Source of the DNA: Fusobacteriia bacterium 4572_74
GTDB lineage: Bacteria; Fusobacteriota; Fusobacteriia; Fusobacteriales; Fusobacteriaceae
Assembly: GCA_002084825.1 (NCBI GenBank)
Contig: NBMF01000011.1
Coordinates: forward strand, 1-46,548
Reading direction: 5' to 3'
DNA length: 46,548 bases
Of this stretch, positions 21,347 to 46,065 are shown piece by piece (positions within the stretch are counted from its first letter, which is position 1; every line of letters begins with the position of its first letter). The notes beneath the pieces were generated by a model. That model ran no database searches. It had not been told where the DNA came from and saw nothing but the letters and a program-made list of their open reading frames with translations. The translations under genes were made by a program, and so were the position numbers.

Positions 21347-23779
21347 TTGGTTCTCCCCAGAATTCTTCATGTAGAAATAACAGAGTTAGAGAATCAAATA
21401 AAACATGGGGAAAGATTTATAATTGTCACAAATTTCAAAGAACTTTTGGCTATCGATACTAAAACAAAGGATAAATTAGATATAAAATTTAAAGATTTGA
21501 TAAAACACTATGATTTTTTTCTACCCTGGGCAGGGATGGAAAAAGCAGAATATCATGCAGAGAATCCAGCAGATGTAAAAGCAGCAGAAAAAATGGCTAA
21601 ACTTTTTGATGAGATAAAAAAGGATAACCCAGATGAAACACCAAAGTTTATTCATGGGTTAAATATCTTTCTTTCAAGATTACTCTTTTGTTTTTTCGCT
21701 GAAGATACGGCTATATTTACAAATAGTCAATTTACAAAGGCAATAAGTTCTCATACTCAAGCAGATGGAAGTGACTTAGATAAATATTTAGAAAATCTTT
21801 TCAAAGTAATGGATACAAATGATATAGATAGAAAAGATCTACCTAAATATTTAGAAGATTTTCCATATGTAAATGGGGGGTTATTTAAAGAAATTATAGA
21901 GATACCTAAATTTACTAAACATTCAAGGCAGGCGATAATTGATAGTGGGGAACTAGATTGGTCGGCTATTAATCCTGATATATTTGGTTCAATGTTTCAA
22001 GGCGTTATCTTAGCAGATAAAAGAGGTAGTCTAGGGATGCACTATACCTCTGTCCCAAATATTATGAAGGTAATAAATCCGCTATTTTTAGATGAATTAA
22101 ATGAAGAATTTGAAGATTCAAAGGGAGATAATAAAAAATTAAATAAATTACTCATAAGAATAAGAAATATCAAGATTTTTGATCCAGCATGTGGAAGTGG
22201 AAATTTTTTGATTGTTGCATATAAAGAGCTTAGAAAGTTAGAGATGAGAATTTTTAAAGAAGCAAAGATGTTGAATATGTCAAATATTTCATTATCTAAT
22301 TTTTATGGTATTAAGATAGATGATTTTGCACATGAGATAGCAAAATTAGCTCTATGGTTATCAGAACATCAAATGAATGTAGAGTTCCTTAAAGAATTTG
22401 GAAGAACTAATCCAACCTTACCATTGAAAGAAGCAGGTGAAATAGTATGCGGAAATGCTACAAGATTAGATTGGGAAGAGGTTTGTCCTAAAAAAGAGGG
22501 AGATGAAATTTATATCTTAGGGAATCCACCGTATATTGGCGGTAAATCTCAGTCAAAAGAGCAAAAAGAGGATATGAAATTTGTATTTATAGGAATAAAA
22601 AAATTTAAAGAATTAGATTATATAGCATGTTGGTTTTTATTGGCTTCAAAATATCTTAAAGAAAAAAGTAAATTTTCTTTTGTAACAACAAGTTCGTTAA
22701 ATGAGGGAGCCCAAGTAGAGCAAATTTGGCCATTAATTATATCTAACAATAATGAAATATTTTTTGCTTATAAACCGTTTAATTGGACTAATAATGCTAA
22801 ATCAAAAGCTGGAGTTACAGTATCAATTGTAGGTGTTTCAAAGAATTATGGAAACAAAATAAAATATATATATACAAATTCTTTAAAACAGATAGTCGGA
22901 AAAATTAATGGATATTTAATTCCTGGAAATGATATATGTATATCTAAAAAAAATAAATCAATTTCAAAACTTCCAACGATGATAACAGGTAATAGTCCGT
23001 ATGAAGGTGGAAATTTAATGTTAAATCTAGAAGAAAAAAATGATTTAATACAAAGATACCCAAATTCAACAGAATTAATAAGGAAAACGTATGGAGCTAA
23101 AGAATTTATAAACAACATTGATCGTTGGTGTTTATGGATAAAAAATGAACAACTAGAAATAGCAGAAAAAATTCTACCGATAAAAGATCGAATAGAAAAT
23201 ATAATAAAATTAAGAAAAAATGGTGGTGAAGTAGCTAGAGGATTAGTGAAAAGACCACATCAATTTAGGTATACACATACAGGGGAAACATCAATACTTA
23301 TAGTTCCTATTGTCTCATCAAGTAGAAGAAATTATATTCCGATGGGAATACTCCCAAAAGAAACAATAATATTAAGTTCAGCGGCAGCAATATATGATAC
23401 AGAAGCATATGTTTTTTCTATTATTAGTTCTAAATTACATATGCAATGGGTAAAATTAACTGCTGGAAGATTAAGAGGTGATATTAGGTACTTATCAGGA
23501 TTGAGTTACAACACTTTCCCATTTCCAAACATAACAAAAAAACAAAAAGAAGAACTCACAGAATGTGTATTCAAAATTTTAGAAGAAAGGGAAAAACATA
23601 GTGAAAAAACTCTAGCTCAACTATATGATCCAGATAAGATGCCAGACGGTCTTAGAGAAGCTCATAGACTAAATGATTTGGCTATTGAAAAATGTTATAG
23701 GGAAAAACCTTTTGAGAGTGATGAGGAAAGGTTGGAATATTTATTTAAGATGTATGAGAAGATGGTGGAGAAGGAATAA
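21347..23779 (+). pseudogene. MmeI-like type IIG/IIL methyltransferase, 5'-truncated
   Basis: The frame encodes about 810 residues of a combined restriction-modification protein: a helical spacer (ENPADVKAAEKMAKLFDEIKK), SAM motif I DPACGSGNFL (about 278), catalytic motif GNPPYIGG (about 391), a target-recognition region and the conserved tail DPDKMPDGLREAHRLNDLAI. The N-terminal PD-(D/E)xK nuclease part (roughly 100-150 residues) is missing: the frame is closed by TAA at 21335-21337, the first possible codon is a TTG without ribosome binding site, and a divergent gene begins only 175 bp upstream. So the gene is probably silent; at best a nuclease-free methylase. It opens a decayed restriction locus. 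Confidence 0.8.
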
Positions 23780-23793
23780 GCCCTCTCTTTGTT

Positions 23794-23821
23794 TCTCTCC
23801 CTTTGAGAATAAAGGGAGAGA
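23794..23821 (+). terminator. Hairpin after the methyltransferase remnant
   Basis: TCTCTCCCTTT and AAAGGGAGAGA form a perfect 11-bp stem around GAGAAT, shortly after the stop codon. No T-run follows, so termination efficiency is uncertain. Confidence 0.5.
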
Positions 23822-23875
23822 AGGTAGAAATAGTGTTGTGAAACAAGGAAAAAATAAATCCTAATTTGTAAATAT

Positions 23876-23905
23876 AAAAAAAGGTCAGGGTAACTAATCC
23901 TGACC
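23876..23905 (-). terminator. Terminator of hydrophobic-peptide element 1
   Basis: Read leftwards, GGTCAGG-N9-CCTGACC is followed by seven Ts. The same stem and loop are conserved at 31058-31086 in element 2. Confidence 0.88.
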
Positions 23906-23928
23906 ATATGAGTGACTAAAAATAGTAG

Positions 23929-24033
23929 CTATACTCTAAAAAATAAAATCAAAGCTATTACTAACAGTGAAAATATATATTCTTTAGGAAGTAGCTTTAA
24001 TACTTTTAGTAAAAAGATGTAGAAATCTTGCAA
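23929..24033 (-). CDS. Hydrophobic 34-residue peptide, putative type I toxin, copy 1
   Basis: TTG-started mini-gene preceded by AGAGGTG. The peptide begins MQDFYIFLLKVLKLLPKEYI and ends FSLLVIALILFFRV: a short amphipathic segment, a Pro-Lys-Glu turn and a membrane-spanning stretch with a basic residue at the end. Copy 2 (31111-31215) differs at six of 34 positions, all conservative (Asp/Asn, Phe/Leu, Lys/Glu, Val/Ile, Arg/Lys, Val/Met), so the product itself seems selected. Size, hydrophobicity and the dedicated promoter, structured leader and terminator fit type I toxins. No homologue is recognised with certainty. It sits inside a decayed restriction locus. Confidence 0.72.
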   Translation of the reverse strand: MQDFYIFLLKVLKLLPKEYIFSLLVIALILFFRV

Positions 24034-24230
24034 ATCGTCACCTCTTTAGCCATTTAATAAAAGGCAAGAAGTTAAATAATGGTATGTCGAGTACCAATTA
24101 TTTACAGGCTATAAATAGCCACTCAGGATTAATTTTATCACATATATTAAAAAATTAATATAAAAAAGGAAACCAACTAGTTAGATTGGTTTCCTCTGCT
24201 CGACATTTTACAAAATTTCTACTTATGTAT
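24034..24230 (-). ncRNA. Structured leader of element 1 with start-codon-sequestering 5' end
   Basis: Minus-strand leader of about 195 nt. The 5' end (24222-24205) can pair with the peptide start (24019-24037) over 16 consecutive base pairs including two G-U. Next, ATGTCGAG (24206-24199) pairs with CTCGACAT (24091-24084). Inside lie a hairpin GGAAACCAA...TTGGTTTCC followed by six Ts, an ATTAATTTT/AAAATTAAT stem and GGCTATTTATAGCC. The internal hairpin plus T-run could end a short leader RNA of about 70-80 nt. Positions 24093-24125 are identical to 31261-31293 in element 2. Folding is by eye. Confidence 0.65.
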
Positions 24231-24236
24231 ACATAA

Positions 24237-24265
24237 AGTATATACAATAAGTCATTAAAAGTCAA
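24237..24265 (-). promoter_or_regulatory. Promoter of element 1
   Basis: TTGACT (24265-24260) and TATACT (24242-24237) separated by exactly 17 bp, reading leftwards. Element 2 has the same arrangement. The predicted RNA start is near 24230, only a few bases before the start-sequestering segment. Confidence 0.8.
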
Positions 24266-24327
24266 GAAAATCCAATAGAAATATGCTAATATTAAGTGTA
24301 AATTTGAAATAAAAAAGGGGGGCAAAG

Positions 24328-24684
24328 ATGCCAGACTTAGTAAGGGTAAATTATGAGAATACAGGGAAAAGTACTAGTATAAATAAGATGGGAATGAGAG
24401 ATATGCAATCTAGAGCTTATGAAGCAAGGGATGCTCAATATCTTTTATTAAAATCTCCTCCTGCATCAGGTAAATCTCGTGCATTAATGTTTTTAGCATT
24501 AGATAAATTATTTTATCAAGGGATAAAAAAAGTTATAGTTGCTGTTCCTGAACGATCTATTGGAGGATCATTTGCTAAAACAGACTTAGAATCTTATGGT
24601 TTTTTTGCTAATTGGGAGCCCAATAATAGGTATAATCTTTGCACTCCTGGAAGGATATGGTGGTCGGTTTTGTCAAACAATTAA
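24328..24684 (+). pseudogene. DEAD/DEAH-box helicase, truncated N-terminal stub
   Basis: The first about 108 residues match the start of a restriction-associated superfamily 2 helicase: MPDLVRVNYENTGKS, MRDMQSRAYEARDAQYLLLK, Walker A PPASGKSRAL and FFANWEPNNRYNLCTPG. The frame then runs into unrelated codons and stops; a full protein should continue for several hundred residues with DEAD-box and helicase motifs. A deletion has joined this stub to the GIY-YIG remnant that follows. Ribosome binding site GGGGGG before ATG is intact, so a useless 118-residue peptide could still be made. Confidence 0.82.
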
Positions 24685-26853: not shown

Positions 26854-26882
26854 TTGTTGGTATTATACTATGATATTATCAT
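26854..26882 (+). promoter_or_regulatory. Candidate promoter ahead of the purine riboswitch
   Basis: TTGTTG (26854-26859) and TATCAT (26877-26882) are 17 bp apart and end 15 bases before the aptamer. Several other AT-rich options exist. Confidence 0.45.
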
Positions 26883-26896
26883 AAAAAAATAAATCA

Positions 26897-26960
26897 ACTC
26901 ATATAAATTTGTGATATGGACAAAAGTTTCTACGGCTAACCTAAATTAGCCACTATGAGT
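26897..26960 (+). ncRNA. Purine riboswitch, guanine-type
   Basis: All landmarks of the purine aptamer are present. P1 is ACTCATA/TATGAGT. P2 is TTTGT/ACAAA with loop GATATGG. J2/3 is GTTTCTAC. P3 is GGCTAA/TTAGCC with loop CCTAAA, ready for the loop-loop contact. J3/1 is ACT, where C (26953) is the base that selects guanine over adenine. The downstream gene is a purine-nucleoside-type lipoprotein, which fits. Unusually, no expression platform separates aptamer and gene: the AUG (26955-26957) lies inside the 3' strand of P1. Confidence 0.9.
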
Positions 26961-27956
26961 AAATTGCGAGCAGTTTACTTTTTCTTGATCTTATTGACTG
27001 CTTGCGGGAAAAAAGAGGATTCTAAAAATGCCATAAATGAAGGTGTGAAAAAAGTTGATTATAAAGTAGGAATAGTACTTGGTTTAGGTGGCTTAGGAGA
27101 TAAATCTTTCAGTGATTCAGCTTATGAAGGCCTTTTGAAAGCGGAAAAAGAATTAGGAATAAAAATTAAATATGTGGAGCCTACAACTCTTTCAGAATTT
27201 GATCAATTTTTAACTGAATTTGCAGAAGCAAATTATGATCTTATAATCGGTTTGAGTTTTGATGCTGAAAAAGGTATTGAAAAGGTAGCAAAAGAATATC
27301 CAGGAAGTAATTTTGTGATTATAGATTCGGTCGTAGATCTGCCAAATGTAAAGTCTATAATCTTTAATCAAAAAGAAGGATCTTTCTTAGCAGGAGCAGT
27401 AGGGCAGATGGTAAGTAAAAATAATTCATTGGGATTTATAGGAGCGATACAGGCTCCATTAATAAAGAATTTTTATGAGGGATATGAGCAGGGAGCACAC
27501 TATATGAATCCAAATGTTAAAGTAAAGGATATATATATTGGTGGGAGTAATCCTTTCAATGACCCTGCTAGAGCAAAAGAATTAGCTATATCAATGGCAG
27601 AAAATGGTGTGGATGTTATTTTTACAGTAGCAGGCGGATCTGGTAGAGGAGTTATGGAAGCTATAAAAGGTAGAGAAAATTTATATGGAATAGGTGTAGA
27701 TTCAAATCAGGATGGAGAAGTGAAGGGAAAAATTTTGACTTCGATCTTAAAAAGAGTGGATGTATCTGTATTTAATGCAGTTTCAGAAGGATTAGCTGGA
27801 AACTTTACGGCTGGAACCATTGTTTTAGGATTAAAAGAAAATGGAATGGGAACTACTGACTTTGAATTTTCTAAAGAACTTATCGGAGAGGAAAATTTAG
27901 CTAAATTAGAACAAATAAAGAAAGATTTAATCTCAGGAAAGATTGAAATCAAATAA
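26955..27956 (+). CDS. BMP-family nucleoside-binding lipoprotein (PnrA/TmpC-like)
   Basis: Substrate-binding lipoprotein of 333 residues for an ABC-type nucleoside importer. The signal is short with lipobox LLTAC (Cys17). Family motifs include VGIVLGLGGLGDKSFSDSAYEG, GAVGQMVSKNNSLGFIGAI and DVIFTVAGGSGRGVMEA. The start is odd: the only ATG lies within riboswitch P1 and no Shine-Dalgarno sequence precedes it; a TTG at 26964 is the alternative. No ATPase or permease genes follow, so the transporter partners are elsewhere or the gene is an orphan. A terminator follows directly. Regulation by guanine through the riboswitch is strongly suggested. Confidence 0.9.
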   Translation: MSKLRAVYFFLILLTACGKKEDSKNAINEGVKKVDYKVGIVLGLGGLGDKSFSDSAYEGLLKAEKELGIKIKYVEPTTLSEFDQFLTEFAEANYDLIIGLSFDAEKGIEKVAKEYPGSNFVIIDSVVDLPNVKSIIFNQKEGSFLAGAVGQMVSKNNSLGFIGAIQAPLIKNFYEGYEQGAHYMNPNVKVKDIYIGGSNPFNDPARAKELAISMAENGVDVIFTVAGGSGRGVMEAIKGRENLYGIGVDSNQDGEVKGKILTSILKRVDVSVFNAVSEGLAGNFTAGTIVLGLKENGMGTTDFEFSKELIGEENLAKLEQIKKDLISGKIEIK

Positions 27957-31057: not shown

Positions 31058-31086
31058 AAAAAAGGTCAGGGTAACTAATCCTGACC
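31058..31086 (-). terminator. Terminator of hydrophobic-peptide element 2
   Basis: Read leftwards, GGTCAGG-N9-CCTGACC then six Ts; the same stem as in element 1. Confidence 0.88.
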
Positions 31087-31110
31087 ACGCGAGTGGCTAA
31101 AAATATATTA

Positions 31111-31215
31111 CTACATTTTAAAGAATAAAATCAAAGCTATTACTAGCAATGAAAATATATATTCTTTAGGTAATAGTTTTAATATTTCTAGTAAAAATAT
31201 ATAGAGATTTTGCAA
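31111..31215 (-). CDS. Hydrophobic 34-residue peptide, putative type I toxin, copy 2
   Basis: TTG start with a full AAAGGAGGTG six bases upstream. The peptide begins MQNLYIFLLEILKLLPKEYI and ends FSLLVIALILFFKM; 28 of 34 residues equal copy 1. Topology is a short amphipathic N-terminal segment and one membrane helix. It lies alone between deoC and an HD-domain gene, on the opposite strand to both, which is typical of a self-contained module. The upstream CACCT can also pair with the AGGTG of the ribosome binding site, a second lock on translation. Confidence 0.74.
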   Translation of the reverse strand: MQNLYIFLLEILKLLPKEYIFSLLVIALILFFKM

Positions 31216-31403
31216 AAGTTCACCTCCTTTAAAAGGTGTTAAACAAAAGGTGTGTCTAAGACCAATTATTTACAGGCTATAAATAGCCACTCATATTAAT
31301 TTTATCATACGCAAGATAAAATTAATACAAAAAGAAAAAACCAACTAGTTAGGCTGGTTTTTTCATAGACACTTTCTTTTGCAAATCTCTATAATTTATG
31401 TAT
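31216..31403 (-). ncRNA. Structured leader of element 2 with start-codon-sequestering 5' end
   Basis: The RNA 5' end (31393-31376) pairs with the peptide start region (31218-31200) over 18 base pairs with a single bulged A. The next stem is GTGTCTA (31372-31366) with TAGACAC (31258-31252), at the same place as ATGTCGAG/CTCGACAT in element 1: different bases, same pairing. Inside are GAAAAAACCA...TGGTTTTTTC followed by T5, a perfect 12-bp stem ATTAATTTTATC/GATAAAATTAAT and GGCTATTTATAGCC. The apical loop of the first hairpin contains the self-complementary ACTAGT in both copies. Confidence 0.68.
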
Positions 31404-31409
31404 AGGTTA

Positions 31410-31438
31410 ATTATATATAAATATCTGTAAAAAGTCAA
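31410..31438 (-). promoter_or_regulatory. Promoter of element 2
   Basis: TTGACT (31438-31433), 17 bp, then a perfect TATAAT (31415-31410), reading leftwards. One of the best promoter matches in the window. Confidence 0.85.
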
Positions 31439-45631: not shown

Positions 45632-46065
45632 TGTAATTCGGAGCGTCAAGCTAAACTTTTATATGTTAGTTGGTGAAAGTCCAACCTAAGTAATTTACCA
45701 TTCAATTAGAAGACAATAGGACAACATATTTAGTGATGAATATGTTGAAGCTCCCTGCGTCAGTAAGTAAGCTGTAACGGAAGTGAACAGAGCGAGCCTC
45801 GTTAAACTATTTGCAGTTGACCAACTACTCGGATTAAGTGAAGTCTGTTATTTTAAGGGGGGCTCTATCGCAAAGGGGCGTATAAAATATTAGTTTCTAA
45901 ATATGGACTAATAGAACCGACAAACTACTGATACTAGTGAATGCTTGAGAAGAAATTTAAAGGGAAAGCCGTATGAGGGAATGAGGGAAAACCTCACGTA
46001 CGGTTTGATGAGGATTGTCAGGTGACTCTAAAAGAGCACCTGCTCTTACTCTACTGACTGAAGAA
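45632..46065 (+). ncRNA. ORF-less group II intron
   Basis: The 5' part carries GGAGCGTCAAGCTAAAC and TTAGTTGGTGAAAGTCCAAC, then further domain I segments (GAAGCTCCCTGCGTCAG, TGTAACGGAAGTGAACAGAG). Domain V is at about 45966-46006: AAGCCGTATGAGG...CCTCACGTACGGTTT. A domain VI-like hairpin (AGAGCACCTGCTCTTACTCT) follows. No reverse-transcriptase ORF is present, so it could only move with help in trans. The domain V tip contains a duplicated GAGGGAAT, an 8-nt insertion compared with the usual hairpin. The exact 5' and 3' ends are uncertain. Confidence 0.75.

Follow-up and report, generated by a model that had tools for sequence, protein, structure and literature searches.

A putative same-strand antitoxin RNA gene upstream of a small hydrophobic peptide gene in Fusobacteriota

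A terminator hairpin located inside the leader of a peptide gene may either lower the expression of one transcript or mark the end of a short RNA with a role of its own. This question is raised by two loci in the window, i.e. the whole stretch of 46,548 nucleotides analysed here (contig NBMF01000011.1 of Fusobacteriia bacterium 4572_74). The first-pass annotation of this DNA had proposed that termination in the leader would release a same-strand antitoxin or attenuator RNA directed against the peptide mRNA.

Two copies of the module are found on the minus strand, about 7 kb apart, each laid out as one transcription unit from promoter to terminator: copy A from 24265 to 23876 and copy B from 31438 to 31058. 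Their homology starts near the -35 and stops at the 3' terminator. The order of elements is the same in both, namely a strong promoter (P1), a tail, a hairpin with its U-run (P3), a short AT-rich stretch, a conserved block beginning GAGTGGCTATTTATAGCCTG, a hairpin hiding the Shine-Dalgarno, the ORF and the 3' terminator. The features, all on the minus strand, are as follows.

24237-24265, minus: copy A P1, short-RNA promoter, TTGACT-17-TATACT (P1 occurs in all homologues)
24162-24230, minus: copy A predicted antitoxin RNA, 69 nt (5' tail, terminator hairpin and U6; start placed from the -10)
24205-24222, minus: copy A E1, complement in the leader of the region around the toxin start codon (partner 24034-24019; duplex energies, covariation)
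24199-24205, minus: copy A E2, TGTCGAG, complementary to CTCGACA at 24091-24085 (fold, sequence)
24162-24194, minus: copy A P3, terminator hairpin 24194-24168 plus T6, with loop UAACUAG 24183-24177 complementary to 23897-23891 (terminator scan; covariation with G056b)
24132-24140, minus: copy A P2, extended -10 TGATAAAAT, proposed toxin promoter (motif search)
24116-24124, minus: copy A H5a GAGUGGCUA, where the toxin mRNA is predicted to begin, pairing with H5b (fold, covariation)
24040-24072, minus: copy A P6, hairpin hiding the Shine-Dalgarno, GAGGTG 24044-24039 (predicted fold)
23929-24033, minus: copy A peptide ORF, 34 aa, TTG start, MQDFYIFLLKVLKLLPKEYIFSLLVIALILFFRV (sequence, conservation)
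23910-23918, minus: copy A H5b UAGUCACUC, pairing with the mRNA 5' end (predicted fold, covariation)
23876-23905, minus: copy A P8, predicted toxin mRNA 3' terminator, loop UUAGUUA 23897-23891 (sequence)
31410-31438, minus: copy B P1, TTGACT-17-TATAAT (promoter search)
31329-31403, minus: copy B predicted antitoxin RNA, 75 nt (start placed from the -10)
31376-31392, minus: copy B E1 (partner 31218-31201, start codon included; duplex energies, covariation)
31366-31372, minus: copy B E2, GTGTCTA (partner TAGACAC 31258-31252; duplex, sequence)
31329-31364, minus: copy B P3, terminator hairpin 31364-31334 plus U-run, loop UAACUAG 31351-31345 (terminator scan)
31299-31307, minus: copy B P2, extended -10 TGATAAAAT, proposed (motif search)
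31284-31292, minus: copy B H5a, predicted mRNA 5' end, pairing with 31099-31091 (fold, covariation)
31221-31238, minus: copy B P6, Shine-Dalgarno hairpin (predicted fold)
31111-31215, minus: copy B peptide ORF, 34 aa, MQNLYIFLLEILKLLPKEYIFSLLVIALILFFKM (sequence, conservation)
31091-31099, minus: copy B H5b UAGCCACUC (sequence, covariation)
31058-31086, minus: copy B P8, 3' terminator, loop UUAGUUA 31078-31072 (sequence)

Within 21347-24684 of the window, copy A has on one side a gene for a type IIG restriction-methyltransferase (PADLOC E 8e-289) and on the other an ORF remnant (24328-24684), helicase-like by eye and without a PADLOC match, beyond which no long ORF follows. Elsewhere, the window contains a purine riboswitch aptamer (26879-26975) and parts of a group II intron (45667-46054).

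The hairpin of copy A, GGAAACCAAucuaacuagTTGGTTTCC (24194-24168, minus strand), is followed by six T (24167-24162) and that of copy B (31364-31334, minus strand) by TTTTT, as the first-pass annotation had observed. These are the sole terminator-like sites returned by the scanner in each region, against an average of 0.1 in shuffled sequences; the 3' terminator P8 is plain by sequence, but its loop exceeds the limit of that scan. With the predicted +1 set right after the P1 -10, six bases apart, termination at P3 would yield RNAs of 69 nt (A) and 75 nt (B), close to the 70-80 nt estimated earlier. The U-run is retained in every copy, and the full transcripts fold better than their shuffles, with z of -7.9 (A) and -9.8 (B). 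A terminator inside a structured leader is typical of many attenuators and riboswitches, and the locus might then sense a ligand or a stress ahead of a peptide that is not a toxin. We consider this reading very improbable: in Rfam the element has no match at gathering score and only sub-threshold matches with E above 1, no upstream segment was seen that could serve as an antiterminator against P3, and the leader consists of start-codon complementarity that is specific to each copy.

Comparison with relatives shows which parts of the module are maintained. Among 98 Fusobacteriota genomes, peptide matches at convincing E-values occur in the same genus only, in G056 (Fusobacteriaceae UBA2433, contig DDQV01000127, a metagenome assembly) and in G058. 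The first family thus comprises five full copies in three genomes: A and B of the window, two in G056 (G056a and G056b) and one in G058. The second G056 copy, detected by DNA search, has a shorter and differing peptide, (M)DLLTFILKLILVIIEYIVTK, probably with an ATA start, and its contig carries phage-like genes, coding for a transcriptional repressor and for a replication protein.

Complementarity between the leader and the peptide start, also claimed by the first-pass annotation, is borne out by the duplex energies. For the duplex of each tail with the start region of the same copy, the energy is -25.3 kcal/mol in A and -24.6 kcal/mol in B, with z about -5.4 relative to dinucleotide shuffles. 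In the matrix of own versus other duplexes, own pairs range from -23.2 to -25.5 kcal/mol (z about -5 against shuffles) and are the lowest in every column, with one tie in row and column (G056a with B). When the five full copies are anchored on the start codon, both sides of the E1:start pairing are found changed at 14 of 22 positions. Compensatory changes extend to two long-distance contacts in G056b, where the loop-loop pair UAACUAG:UUAGUUA becomes UAACCAG:CUGGUUA, and the 5'-3' helix GAGUGGCUA:UAGCCACUC, whose second arm stands just before the 3' terminator, becomes GAAUGGCUA:UAGCCAUUC, both partners having changed in each case. The Shine-Dalgarno hairpin is kept in A and B with differing sequences. 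The self-complementary loop hexamer ACTAGT, suggested earlier as a possible seed of kissing contacts, is present in both window copies; since it lies partly in the stem and reads ACCAGT in G056b, self-kissing lacks conservation and is rejected. Conservation is seen instead in the complementarity of the leader loop UAACUAG to UUAGUUA in the loop of the 3' terminator.

The strand to which these helices belong can be read from their wobble pairs. The helix arms were chosen by hand, so that counts of unpaired cells are uninformative there. Read as sense-strand RNA, they contain 23 G-U pairs and not a single A-C pair, and the helices are for this reason assigned to a sense-strand RNA. This bias weighs against a classic type I arrangement, in which an unseen plus-strand RNA would be the antitoxin and the leader a folded 5' UTR. 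Such an arrangement has the usual layout in its favour, as well as a weak plus-strand promoter-like match, TTTACA-17-CATATT, in B and G058; yet no opposite-strand promoter-like site is common to the copies. Plus-strand matches are absent from A, G056b and the second-family locus G003 and lie mostly at differing places in the other copies, and no conserved opposite-strand promoter was found in nine full loci. We consider this arrangement very improbable.

A second promoter on the sense strand appears likely. An extended -10 is located between P3 and the conserved block, TGATAAAAT in A, B, G056a and G058 and TGCTATTAT in G056b. With the extended -10 defined as TGn plus at least five of six hexamer positions, exactly one is found on the sense strand of each of the nine full loci examined in both families, always in the corresponding position, while the opposite strand has none. 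Transcription from this P2 would be expected to start at the G of GAGUGG/GAAUGG, that is, at the 5' arm of the 5'-3' helix. For any one locus, the chance that an extended -10 lies at this distance (4-8 nt) ahead of H5a is about 2-3%. The case for P2 was made post hoc, after the sequence had been seen; P2 has no -35 and in the first family fits five of six positions of the -10 hexamer. A P2 without a -35 is plausible given that Fusobacterium promoters combine a pronounced -10 with a weak -35 (PMC11005410).

The main competitor of two tandem genes is a single transcript from P1, in which a partly efficient internal terminator lowers expression, the 5' segment folds onto its own start and the short RNA is a by-product. 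One promoter would suffice for this, a purely cis-acting E1 within one long leader would give rise to the E1 covariation equally well, and each of the five copies, folded as P1 read-through RNA, has its start codon completely paired (unpaired probability 0.00). Within one RNA, however, the E1:start pairing would be pseudoknotted with the 5'-3' helix and likewise with the loop-loop contact, although these two also covary, whereas all pairings become compatible when the peptide mRNA and the short RNA are made as two molecules. A P2 mRNA folded by itself adopts the 5'-3' helix, with the Shine-Dalgarno paired and the start codon mostly open (0.61-0.95 unpaired). Retention of the U-run, the existence of a leader-only copy (see below) and the like placement of the extended -10 in both families, perfect (TGATATAAT) in four of five second-family copies, also speak against a single transcript, which we regard as unlikely. 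Because a conserved extended -10 follows the terminator in nine of nine full loci examined, two tandem genes are preferred over one attenuated transcript. The earlier interpretation is therefore upheld in part: its core, a short same-strand RNA that would be released at the leader terminator and act on the peptide mRNA, finds strong comparative support in the covarying leader:start pairing of two families without detected sequence similarity and in the leader-only copy, while the attenuated transcript that it offered as an option is disfavoured by the extended -10.

A palindrome, ATTAATTTTATC...GATAAAATTAAT (31294-31327 and 24128-24159), covers part of the -10 proposed for P2 in four copies (A, B, G056a and G058) and is absent from G056b. 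It could be the operator of a regulator instead of an RNA hairpin.

The leader-only copy was found in G056 by a promoter-pattern search, on a phage-like contig related to that of the second G056 copy. This third locus consists of P1, leader and terminator only. Its U-tract runs straight into the flank that normally comes after the 3' terminator of a full copy, about 208 bases between the T-tracts being missing, and the leader is about 96% identical to that of the full copy. The flanks are just as alike, so that the copy is taken to be recent and not as proof of selection. As far as its sequence goes, it shows that the proposed short-RNA unit, encoded exactly, can stand alone, and it might be an antitoxin carried against the toxin of a relative.

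The G056 contigs concerned, C157 and C122, are related phage-like elements with a common repressor and neighbours, one having the full module and the other the leader only. The module had no match in plasmids, and scans of viral contigs with three patterns gave none either. Another viral-contig pattern gave six matches, all in an unrelated context, and one further pattern gave 24 matches; blastn of the G056b module against phages returned three short partial matches.

A covariance model built from P1 and leader gave weak matches outside the genus, and one of them, G003:C5:76889, proved to share the layout of the first family, its module body being without detected sequence similarity. Further members of this second family occur in G006 (three copies) and G010, in a genus different from that of the first. 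Their elements follow in the order P1 (TTGAYTTTTT...TATAAT), tail, P3 with U-run, extended -10 (TGATATAAT, or TGCTATACT in G003) and 5' arm GUGGUUACUU, then the Shine-Dalgarno AAAGGGGGUG (absent from G003, whose leader is shorter), a 19-aa hydrophobic peptide (e.g. MQRIIIVIALFLLLAKKGY), the 3' arm AAGUAACCAC and a terminator. E1 duplexes reach -22.5 to -33 within allele groups versus -6.6 to -15.6 between groups, and the loop pairs are AGUCGG:CCGACU, GAGUGAG:CUCACUC and GGUGAGA:UCUCACC. Promoter order, terminator, tail-to-start pairing, loop-loop contact and 5'-3' helix are thus common to both families, each with its own compensatory changes. What computation shows is the elements, their complementarity with its covariation, and the recurrence of the layout in another family without detected sequence similarity.

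In an architecture scan of 0.49 Mb (the window, 400 kb of G058 and some loci), the known modules came out on top, the background scored -22.8 or weaker, and no further family emerged; the G058 copy scores -21.2 owing to the bounding of its hairpin. Two other weak covariance-model loci deserve mention. At G029:C2:9914-10041 and downstream, a leader hairpin is complementary to a segment just before the Shine-Dalgarno of MYYFTELVVQIMAGIIVKIVCDWLDKK, a weakly Fst/Ldr-like peptide; this locus may be a variant of the module design in which the lower stem of the hairpin extends past the T-run. At G019:C3:1455126-1455178 and downstream, a similar leader precedes MNIFIQNIHFDGRLVLLLVVIIIVLLYRK, its segment GTTAAGAATATTTGT being complementary to ACAAATATTCTTAAC beside the Shine-Dalgarno, and this locus also looks like a variant. 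Among the other weak matches listed, none had the module layout.

The window peptide, with 34 aa, a TTG start and a hydrophobic core YIFSLLVIALILFF, is conserved in four copies; of the 13 codons that differ between A and B, seven are synonymous. It had no match in Pfam, NCBIfam or the phage and plasmid collections, and peptide matches from distant phyla, once translated, were not convincingly related. From its hydrophobicity, we infer that the peptide is toxic. The 19-aa peptides of the second family (MQRIIIVIALFLLLAKKGY-type) may resemble the Ibs toxins of E. coli.

Taken together, these data lead to a model of two genes on one strand, to which we assign a probability of about three in four. 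Transcription from P1 would give a 69-81 nt RNA that ends at the leader hairpin P3 and acts as antitoxin, and P2, just past P3, would give the mRNA of the small hydrophobic peptide, the toxin. This mRNA would close upon itself, its 5' end pairing with the segment before the 3' terminator and its Shine-Dalgarno being held in a hairpin. The antitoxin would make contact through the loops of the two terminator hairpins (UAACUAG with UUAGUUA), after which its 5' tail would pair at length with the start-codon region and block translation. If the antitoxin were lost and the mRNA opened, for example through 3' trimming, synthesis of the peptide would follow and the membrane would presumably be damaged; read-through transcripts from P1 would carry the antitoxin in cis and stay locked. 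The RNAs as drawn, their pairing in trans and the route of mRNA activation are what we infer from these comparisons. The claim is structural and comparative, with transcription, toxicity and trans-action as predictions and the initial observation confirmed.

Complementarity of a predicted RNA to the predicted toxin mRNA at the translation start and a small hydrophobic product would place the module with type I systems by mechanism. Closure of the hok mRNA by a 5'-3' long-distance helix is a familiar feature of such systems. The aapA mRNA shows 5'-3' long-distance closure as well, consistent with activation by 3' trimming (PMC6733600). A helix of this type is predicted in the module mRNA, as in hok/sok and aapA/IsoA, whose antitoxins, however, are antisense RNAs from the opposite strand, where the module has no conserved promoter. 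In par of pAD1 (Fst; RNA I/RNA II), the antitoxin meets the toxin RNA at the terminator loop first and then at start-codon repeats (PMC7472228). A terminator-loop contact as in Fst/Ldr is predicted here from complementarity and compensatory change in both families. The module further resembles par in its hydrophobic non-ATG peptide of 33-34 aa, the Shine-Dalgarno in a hairpin, the paired 5' end of the toxin RNA and a leader loop carrying a YUNR-like CUAA. It differs in having tandem same-strand genes, inverted repeat copies and two terminators, where the par RNAs are convergent, complementary through direct repeats and ended by one shared bidirectional terminator. The peptide is not Fst-like either: neither window peptide gave an Fst/Ldr match, and PXXXG does not occur in the sequence.

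In tisB/istR-1, zorO/orzO, shoB/ohsC and dinQ/agrB, a non-overlapping antitoxin gene adjoins the toxin gene and a discrete stretch is complementary (PMC4147584). Those gene pairs diverge, and their RNAs interact within the 5' UTR at a long distance upstream of the start codon, unlike the tandem module with pairing over the start codon. The leader-only copy recalls the orz antitoxin-only loci (PMC11264685). Type III systems (toxIN/AbiQ/cptIN) share the gene order of antitoxin RNA gene, terminator hairpin and toxin gene on one strand (PMC4147584). Their tandem-repeat antitoxin RNA binds an RNase protein, whereas no tandem repeat was seen in the 69-75 nt RNA, which would pair with an mRNA for a hydrophobic peptide of 19-34 aa. 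For TADB 3.0, type I is defined by a toxin gene and an antitoxin RNA on opposite strands (PMC10767807), while both RNAs of the module are predicted on the same strand. The reviews consulted describe type I antitoxins as overlapping antisense, as convergent or as divergent (PMC7472228, PMC4147584), and no same-strand or tandem type I antitoxin was found in our search of the open-access literature.

As at least two families without detected similarity have this arrangement, it would represent a design rather than one locus. It is probably a toxin-antitoxin class of Fusobacteriota for which no description was found, characterized by a same-strand upstream antitoxin gene with its own terminator, inverted complementary segments and a terminator-loop contact. 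Before a cyanobacterial case in 2025, type I systems had been reported from Proteobacteria, Firmicutes and Tenericutes only (PMC12390103). A same-strand layout in Fusobacteriota would be missed by rules that look to the opposite strand, which could help to explain this apparently narrow range. The paralogues (A and B in the window, a and b in G056, three in G006) would provide natural collections of partner-specific RNA pairs, and the module a clean test of how two RNAs encoded on one strand stay separate and yet pair.
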